Positions 3,883-6,158 of a stretch of 6,158 bases of DNA are shown piece after piece (the first letter of the stretch is position 1; the number at the start of each line of letters is the position of its first letter). The position numbers and the translations under genes are program-made. Where the stretch lies: contig DAOVRJ010000152.1 in the NCBI GenBank assembly GCA_030628225.1, forward strand, positions 1 through 6,158, read 5' to 3'. The stretch is from Candidatus Zixiibacteriota bacterium. GTDB lineage: Bacteria; SM23-81. The notes beneath the pieces are model-generated. The model searched no databases. It had not been told where the DNA came from and was given only the letters and a program-made list of their open reading frames with translations.

Positions 3883-3964
3883 TCTTTATCTATATTTGGG
3901 GATTTATGAGATAGATTGCCGATGATCGTGGTGAGGGGGATGGGTTTTCTCTCGGGCCGATAAA

Positions 3965-4015
3965 GGGAAGGTAAGAGATCTGTTTCATCACCACAATCTG
4001 CGTGGTGACCTTCCC
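3965..4015 (+). other. Strong hairpin in the zapB-like/zapA gap
   Basis: GGGAAGGT (3965-3972) pairs perfectly with ACCTTCCC (4008-4015), and inside it CACCAC (3989-3994) pairs with GTGGTG (4002-4007) around a seven-base loop AATCTGC. A 16-base bulge (3973-3988, containing the palindrome AGATCT) lies on the 5' side. It stands in the 165-base non-coding gap before zapA, 32 bases from the zapA ATG. A run TTTTCTT follows eight bases later (4024-4030), too far for a standard intrinsic terminator. Its role is unknown; it could be an mRNA-processing, attenuation or leader element. Confidence 0.55.
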
Positions 4016-4047
4016 GCCGATGGTTTTCTTCCCAGGTTAGATGAGTG

Positions 4048-4344
4048 ATGGTAAGTGAAAAGTACACGGTGAAAGTAAACATCTTCGGAAATGAGTATCC
4101 TATAAAAAGCGAGGCAGACCCGGAGTACATCAAAAGGGTGGCCAAGTATGTGGACCGGAAAATGCGGGAGATCTCAGAAAAAGTCAATATCAGCTCAGCG
4201 GCTAAGGTTGCCGTACTGGCGGCGCTGAACATCACCGATGAGCTATTTCGAGAAAAAGCTGATAAAGACAAGGCATTAGCTGAGGTTGATGATCGAACTG
4301 CCGAGCTGGCCGAATGGTTGGAAAAAGCGTTGCACACTTTCTAA
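4048..4344 (+). CDS. zapA: Cell division protein ZapA
   Basis: ZapA is a small cytoplasmic protein that binds FtsZ and bundles its protofilaments at the division ring. The 98-residue product has the family layout: an N-terminal beta-alpha-beta head (KYTVKVNIFGNEYPIKSEAD, about 5-24), the characteristic segment DPEYIKRVAKYVDRKMREI (24-42), an Ala-rich helix (SSAAKVAVLAALNITDELFR, about 49-68), and a charged C-terminal coiled coil (about 69-98) used for dimer and tetramer formation. A GTG at 4045 in the same frame is an alternative start adding one residue; the only Shine-Dalgarno-like element is a weak AGG at 4034-4036, so the choice between GTG 4045 and ATG 4048 is not firm. The neighbours are a ZapB-like gene upstream, and a structured RNA plus rny downstream. 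Confidence 0.93.
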   Translation: MVSEKYTVKVNIFGNEYPIKSEADPEYIKRVAKYVDRKMREISEKVNISSAAKVAVLAALNITDELFREKADKDKALAEVDDRTAELAEWLEKALHTF

Positions 4345-4418
4345 TCCGGGTTTACGAAAAAAAGGAAATGATCGGTTTAGATAACTGAACTTTAAGTAGG
4401 TTCTGAGAACTTTAGATT

Positions 4419-4550
4419 CCCCGCCATATCCGCGGTTAGATGAGGCTATAAGCCTCAATCCAGACCATACTTCTGGCGATGCAGAGAGCCATTTCGTCGG
4501 AAGAGGGTCTGATGTCTCCAGAATCGCGGAAGCAAAAGGCGGGGTTTTTT
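4419..4550 (+). ncRNA. ssrS: Candidate 6S RNA between zapA and rny
   Basis: The region folds as one long rod. The outer helix is CCCCGCC (4419-4425) with GGCGGGG (4538-4544). The second helix is TCCGCGGTT (4429-4437) with AATCGCGGA (4522-4530), nine pairs including one G-T. A central open region follows, whose 5' side holds a perfect hairpin TGAGGCT-ATA-AGCCTCA (4441-4457) and whose 3' side is ten unpaired bases (4512-4521). The terminal arm has CAGACC (4461-4466) with GGTCTG (4506-4511), then an imperfect stem from CTTCTGGCGA (4470-4479) to TCGTCGGAAG (4494-4503), with about 14 bases at the tip. Closing stem, central bubble and terminal arm are the architecture of 6S RNA, which sequesters housekeeping RNA polymerase. 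6S genes are known next to zapA in Proteobacteria. The 132-base core is shorter than the usual 160-200, so the true 5' end may lie upstream (about 4390). A structured rny leader is the main alternative. Confidence 0.5.
4538..4550 (+). terminator. Terminator-like end of the structured RNA
   Basis: GGCGGGG is followed at once by six T. The only good partner for GGCGGGG is CCCCGCC at 4419-4425, about 110 bases upstream, with the whole RNA folded between them. That gives a G/C-rich helix plus U-run as in intrinsic termination, though with a very large loop. It would define the 3' end of the RNA; whether it stops read-through into rny is not clear. Confidence 0.4.
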
Positions 4551-4604
4551 ATGGCGTACGCTTTCTGTGGAAAAGGGCGTCATCAATAGAGGGAGGGAAC
4601 GAAC

Positions 4605-6158
4605 ATGGGAGAAATACCAGCGCATCTTTGGAGTTTATTTCCCTTGGTGGGCATGCTGTTCTTCTTGGCCGGATGGTATGTGAGCAGGAGAATCAGTGAG
4701 GGAAAGGTGAATAAAGCCGAGAAACTGGCTCATAAGATCATTTTAGATGCCGAAAAAGAAGCGGAGATCAAGATTCGAGAGGCCAAATTAGAGGCCAAAG
4801 ACGAATGGTATAAGGCCAAGATGAAATTTGAGCAGGAGACCCAGAAGAAGCGGGTTGAGACGCAGCGTTTGGAGAGAAAGCTCTCCGAGAGAGAGGGGAA
4901 TCTTGACCGCAAGGTGGATATTCTCAGCAAGAAGGAGAGAGAGAATCAAGCCCGGGAGAAGAATATTCTGTCGCGCGATCGGGCAGTACGTGCCAAGGAC
5001 ACAGAGCTCTCCCGACTCATTAGCGATCAGAACATGCAGTTGGAGCGAATCGCCGGCATGACCAGCTCCGAGGCCAAAAAGCTGCTGATGGCCAACCTGG
5101 AGACACAGGCGCGCCGGGAGGCGGCACATATTGTTAAAAACATAAAGGACAAAGCGCGGATAACTGCCGATAAAGAGGCCAAAGAGATCATCGTATCCTG
5201 CATCCAGCGCTGTGCTGCAGACCATGCAGTTGAGTCTATGGTTTCTGTGGTTTCCTTGCCAAATGACGAGATGAAAGGACGGATTATCGGCAGAGAGGGT
5301 CGGAATATTCGATCTTTCGAGACCGCCACAGGAATCGACGTTATAGTGGATGATACCCCAGAGGCAGTCATTCTTTCCGGCTACGATCCCATTCGTCGTG
5401 AGATTGCCAAGATGGCTCTGGAGCGGCTGATTCTTGACGGGCGCATACATCCTGGCCGTATAGAGGAGATTGTGGCCAAGGCCGAGAAGGACATGGAGGC
5501 CATAATTTTGGAGACGGGCGAGCAGGCTTGCTTCGATGTGGGCGTCGATGGAATACACCCGGAAATCATCAAACTTCTGGGAAGGTTGCGTTATCGAACC
5601 AGCTATGGACAGAATGTTCTGCAACACAGCAAGGAAGTTGCCACTATCGCCAGCCTGATGGCTGCCGAGCTGGATATGGATAGCAGATTGGCCAAAAGGG
5701 CAGGTTTGTTACACGACATCGGGAAAGCAGTAGATCGCTATACCGAGGGAACTCACAGCCAAATTGGCCATGAGATCGCTCAGAAATACGGAGAAGATCC
5801 TGTTGTGCTGAACGCTATCATGGCCCATCACGAGGATGTAGCGCCCACCTCATTGATCTCTGTGTTGGTTCAAGCCTCCGACGCTATCTCCGGAGCGCGT
5901 CCCGGGGCCCGGCGAGAGACGCTGGAGGGATATATCAAGAGACTGGAGAGGTTGGAGGAGCTGGCCGATTCTTTCAGGGGAGTGAGGAAAACTTACGCCA
6001 TCCAGGCTGGTCGGGAAATTCGGGTGATCGTGGAGTACGAGAAGGTAGACGATGCCCAGGCTGCAGAGTTGGCTGAAGAAATAGCTCAGAAGATTCAGGC
6101 CGAGATGGAATATCCCGGGCAGATAAAGGTGACGGTAATTCGCGAGATCCGAGCCGTC
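4605..6158 (+). CDS. rny: Ribonuclease Y, C-terminus cut by the window edge
   Basis: RNase Y is a membrane-anchored endoribonuclease that initiates mRNA decay. The frame is open for 518 codons to the last base, with no stop. The family ends soon after a VTVIRE-type segment, visible here at the edge, so only a few residues should be missing. Domains in order: an N-terminal membrane helix (about 8-26, [19 protein letters not shown]); a long Glu/Lys/Ala-rich coiled coil (about 30-190); a KH RNA-binding domain with the GxxG loop in GRIIGREG (225-232); and an HD phosphohydrolase domain with H341, the HD pair H370-D371 in LLHDIGKA, H408-H409 and D426, the expected metal-binding set. H370-D371 lie almost at the positions of the Bacillus subtilis enzyme's HD pair. 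The start follows GGGAGGG (4591-4597) with a seven-base spacer. It is probably expressed by read-through or from a promoter between zapA and rny. Confidence 0.97.

Follow-up and report, generated by a model that had tools for sequence, protein, structure and literature searches.

Between zapA and rny in the window, the stretch of 6,158 nucleotides analyzed here, lies a strongly folding element of 126 bases, which is real and which we take, with a probability of about one half, to be a large terminator-type RNA structure (leader or 3′-end) separating the pheST-zapBA genes from rny, at the site where relatives carry 6S RNA. The window is contig C272 of genome G000, whose assembly consists of 306 contigs and is 92% complete. 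All genes are on the plus strand in the order pheS-pheT-zapB-zapA-gap-rny; Pfam bears out zapA and rny as the genes flanking the gap (Table 1), and the 260 bases between them (4345–4604) are free of plus-strand ORFs of at least 60 amino acids, as the initial annotation had described. 6S RNA is a widespread regulator of RNA polymerase that is often recognized by its structure and place, and the initial annotation had tentatively assigned the element to this family.

Table 1. Features of the zapA-rny region, in window coordinates; pair counts refer to a hand-made, structure-guided alignment with the sister-genus locus L031
Feature	Position	Strand	Basis and comparison
zapA	4045–4344	+	upstream gene; Pfam ZapA, 3.8e-23
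Closing stem, 5′ strand CCCCGCC	4419–4425	+	sequence, fold; identical in L031
Second helix, 5′ strand TCCGCGGTT	4429–4437	+	fold; 4/9 pairs broken in L031
Perfect 7-bp hairpin TGAGGCT-ATA-AGCCTCA, ATA loop	4441–4457	+	sequence, fold; 3/9 pairs of the arm region broken in L031
Arm base helix, CAGACC with GGTCTG	4461–4466 / 4506–4511	+	fold; 2/6 pairs broken in L031
Terminal hairpin, CTTCTGGCGA / TCGTCGGAAG	4470–4479 / 4494–4503	+	against L031: three double changes, one single change, one broken pair
Second helix, 3′ strand AATCGCGGA	4522–4530	+	fold; helix has one G-U pair
Closing stem, 3′ strand GGCGGGG	4538–4544	+	one C-to-U change in L031, pair kept as G-U
T-run TTTTTT	4545–4550	+	sequence; makes the closing stem terminator-like
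rny (RNase Y)	4605–6158	+	downstream gene, runs past the window end; Pfam RNase_Y_N, 1.8e-55

The helices proposed in the initial annotation are all present in the sequence and in the minimum-energy fold of positions 4419–4550 (−59.8 kcal/mol), and the perfect hairpin with its three-base loop can be read directly from the sequence. Shuffled sequences average −38.3 kcal/mol, which corresponds to a z score of −5.9 (range of single-sequence values, −5.5 to −5.9), and 0 of 200 shuffles folds as well; among further 132-base windows sampled from both strands of this 6.2 kb, the best z score is about −3.6 and the median is 0. Because the helices occur where they were placed and the fold is far stronger than that of shuffled sequence, the element can be regarded as real. 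The closing stem encloses 112 nt, and this interior still folds with a z score of −4.7 when the stem is left out. The central region that had been described as unpaired is mostly paired in the predicted fold: the hairpin and the second helix occupy most of it, and about 10 unpaired bases remain on the 3′ side.

6S RNA was a good guess for the window, because related phyla carry it at the same zapA-rny site. It is found in the gap after zapA in KSB1 (L032), Calditrichota, SM23_31, Edwardsbacteria, WOR-3 and one Latescibacterota chromosome, and also in genomes G028, G086, G077, G058 and G082, in most cases directly before rny. The 6S RNAs of these relatives score 29–85 bits with RF00013 (several 60–80, others 33–85), and further ones are evident from the CCAACAC ... 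CCCAC blocks that these RNAs share. Most of them, like the window element, have a T-run after the closing stem, and the aligned ends of canonical 6S RNAs have little sequence in common.

The model match expected of a 6S RNA was not obtained. At E ≤ 10, RF00013 matched neither the window nor the 260-base gap, and it gave no match in L031 and nothing elsewhere in G000–G003, the four genomes that represent the window's phylum. R1, a core model for which 25 6S RNAs from related phyla were used, gave −0.1 bits on the window gap with filters off, as against 35–104 bits in 6S-bearing control genomes, including genomes outside the training set. R1 reached 79–101 bits in 24 of 24 KSB1 genomes, a success that is partly by construction because KSB1 members are in the training set, and 54–57 bits in four Latescibacterota outside it. 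Nothing significant was found with R1 in G000–G003, a negative that is not absolute because R1 missed one known 6S RNA (G082), and for G000 the lack of another 6S RNA is the outcome of searching the 92%-complete assembly with RF00013 and R1. The CCAACAC and CCCAC blocks, both nearly invariant in the 25 relatives, are missing from the element, and its 126 nt compare with ~143–207 nt for the 6S RNAs of the relatives compared and fall below the usual ~160–200 nt (PMC9130861; PMC8876501). Among Zixibacteriota, 0 of 132 genomes yielded a 6S RNA by RF00013 or R1 under stricter filters with few candidates scored per genome, so that either loss or strong divergence of 6S RNA would be compatible with this result. 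No paper was found in the literature on 6S RNA with zapA and Deltaproteobacteria, or on 6S RNA with Zixibacteria. The zapB-zapA gap, considered as an alternative 6S site, was rejected (fold z score −1.1). This gap (3883–4044 in the window, 2820–3010 in L031) contains a block, GATCGTGG ... GGGTTTTCTCTC, that is common to the window and the sister genus, and its folding is not unusually good.

A rival possibility is that the element is a 6S RNA, shortened and strongly diverged, in which the closing stem would stand for downstream DNA, followed by a bubble partly filled by the hairpin and by the arm, and which would bind the housekeeping holoenzyme and be released by product RNA (pRNA) synthesis. 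Apart from the missing model match and blocks, its length is below that of Aquifex 6S RNA, which at ~160 nt is named among the shortest known (PMC9130861). However, truncations of 6S-1 RNA to 78–82 nt still cycle in vitro (PMC8876501), and mainly because such short derivatives work and no other 6S RNA was found in the phylum, we consider this origin unlikely rather than negligible.

The closest named relative by ZapA (85% identity) is 'candidate division Zixibacteria SM23_81' (L031), of a sister genus, and the comparison of this type of zapA-rny element rests on two sequences, the window and L031. The two elements are nearly equal in length (126 and 125 nt) and share 64% identity, as against 63% and 67% in the flanking gap sequence, so that the element is conserved no more than its flanks. 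When the pairs were compared one by one on the hand-made, structure-guided alignment, the closing stem kept 7 of 7 pairs in L031, with one changed on one side (to G-U), and the terminal hairpin kept 11 of 12, with three double changes, while helix 2, the hairpin arm and the arm base lost pairs as listed in Table 1. Covariation in the two closing helices had been proposed as a check; on L031 alone, it speaks against helix 2 and is nearly uninformative for helix 1, where the single one-sided change is the only one. The suggestion that the bubble hairpin refolds after pRNA synthesis is likewise without comparative support, because L031 does not keep it as a perfect hairpin. The broken pairs in helix 2 and the hairpin count against a diverged 6S RNA. 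L031 prefers a different interior, with an 18-bp arm, and its center is more open than that of the window. In favor of a diverged 6S RNA, the L031 element folds as a closing stem, a bubble and this arm.

Joint folding of the two sequences on an automatic alignment, with the closing stem fixed, is only modestly better than that of shuffled-column sets (z score −1.8, 17/300). Since this value is modest and the sequences prefer different interiors, the strong structural signal sits within each sequence and is not clearly shared between them. The joint value would fit a chance folding of GC-rich intergenic DNA next to an ordinary terminator, with an interior devoid of function; the single-sequence z scores, including that of the interior alone, argue against such an accident and make it very improbable.

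ZapA could be placed in 132 Zixibacteriota, 64 Latescibacterota and 82 KSB1 genomes, and at most 30 gaps were inspected in each phylum. In many KSB1 and Latescibacterota and some Zixibacteriota, the zapA-rny gap has an element of 41–141 nt that is bounded by a C-rich/G-rich stem and leads into T's; stem-then-T-run elements are also present in G056 and in the phylum of the window. Their length and interior are very variable, and the interiors from KSB1, Latescibacterota and Zixibacteriota cannot be aligned with that of the window. No such element was seen in a few KSB1 loci (e.g., L196–L198) or in most of the Zixibacteriota read outside one group. In five Zixibacteriota species (L120–L124), the element is a small conserved rod preceding rny; its closing stem is CCCCAC/GTGGGG, its internal loop is A-rich on the 3′ side, and it has a GATTTT arm. 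The distance from the end of the T-run to rny has a median of 21 nt in 61 gap elements (range 3–192; about 55 nt in the window), so that most of these elements have little space for a promoter before rny.

Canonical 6S RNA lies away from zapA, on another contig or at another position, in 30 of 30 KSB1 genomes (24 of 24 searched by R1 and six by RF00013), and the same split is found in three Latescibacterota (G253, G255 and G258, with loci L174, L179 and L176). In KSB1 (L101, L102, L103, L108 and L109), this canonical 6S RNA adjoins genes for NfeD-family proteins, STAS-domain proteins of the anti-sigma-antagonist type and Mg-chelatase-like ATPases instead of zapA and rny. Most of the KSB1 and Latescibacterota genomes with 6S RNA elsewhere still hold a stem-plus-T-run element in the zapA-rny gap. 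The gap element therefore cannot be the sole 6S RNA of those genomes, and place and shape are not diagnostic of 6S RNA, which further weakens the case for a diverged 6S RNA in the window. Of the 6S identity first proposed, the locus shared with the 6S RNAs of relatives, the closing stem and arm, and the lack of another 6S RNA in G000–G003 still speak for it; the model match, an intact helix 2 and the diagnostic value of place and shape do not.

Of 40 representative gap elements, 12 have GT[TC]CG, GTTTG or GTCG shortly past the closing stem, as compared with 3.2 expected (0/300 shuffles), and this motif resembles UGUUCG, which is seen at some 6S 5′ ends. This motif may hint at common descent with 6S RNA, but it is only a hint, because it was chosen after looking and may arise from stem complementarity. 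A broader proposal is that the zapA-rny elements form a class of 6S-type RNAs that are minimal and divergent in sequence. They would be the sole 6S RNA where no recognizable one occurs (this phylum and part of the Zixibacteriota), and would accompany the canonical 6S RNA as a second one in KSB1 and some Latescibacterota; we regard this proposal as rather doubtful.

The other family of the window's phylum (L036 and L040) has a hairpin of 60–61 nt at the same place, without a large bubble. By eye, UUCGUGAU on the 5′ side of these hairpins resembles UGUUCGUGAU of some 6S 5′ ends (L024); the hairpins could possibly be shrunken relics of 6S RNA. The absence of the window's interior from this sister family also counts against the idea that the element is an independent small RNA, or an rny leader that binds protein or is sensitive to RNase Y, with a function unrelated to 6S RNA or simple termination. 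Such a function would agree with the strong folding of the interior, the compensatory changes in the terminal hairpin and the conserved placement before rny, but no sequence block is conserved across phyla and the identity to L031 is that of the flanks, so that we hold this explanation to be quite improbable.

The terminator-type structure is favored because KSB1 and Latescibacterota genomes with such gap elements also have a canonical 6S RNA elsewhere, because L036 and L040 carry only the short hairpin, and because the window and L031 have different interior helices but keep the closing stem and T-run; a GC-rich stem lies directly before the T-run in the window. It is also favored by the lack of a sigma-70-like promoter in 4200–4650 and the little promoter room before rny in most gap elements. 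Transcripts of the upstream operon would fold at the gap element, and the closing stem with its U-run would terminate a share of them, thereby setting the 3′ end of the zap mRNA, so that rny would be reached only by read-through or from starts within the gap. Conceivably, the structure is cleaved by RNase Y or by a different RNase, which would in this way adjust its own mRNA. The ancestor of the element may have been a 6S gene, the closing stem being retained as a terminator. Several features weaken this reading: the interior, taken without the closing stem, folds much more strongly than expected by chance, which a bare terminator would not require, the terminal hairpin has the three double changes on the hand alignment, and a terminator scan of 4200–4650, which took loops of 3–8 only, listed no terminator, the element having no such short loop. 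Terminators that enclose a domain of more than 100 nt are rare, which also counts against it.

Compared with known systems, the element resembles 6S RNA (RF00013, SsrS) in its location between zapA and rny, its closing stem followed by a T-run and its terminal arm, but differs from it in having no model score or shared blocks, a length of only 126 nt, a mostly paired center and interior helices that are not conserved in L031. Relying only on place and rod shape can be misleading, as many genomes keep a terminator-like structure here and true 6S RNA elsewhere. The KSB1 genomes tested and some Latescibacterota keep a canonical 6S RNA elsewhere, unlike the window's phylum within the RF00013 and R1 searches of G000–G003; this phylum and Zixibacteriota seem to be lineages in which 6S RNA is either lost or unrecognizable. 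With intrinsic (Rho-independent) terminators and terminator-type leader attenuators, the element shares a GC-rich stem directly before six T's and a position between two genes of the same orientation, near the start of the next gene, but where these have a short loop, its stem, a putative terminator, encloses a structured domain of more than 100 nt. Finally, it is like the zapA-rny gap elements of KSB1, Latescibacterota and Zixibacteriota, which occupy the same gap and have a C-rich/G-rich closing stem, a T-run and a variable length.
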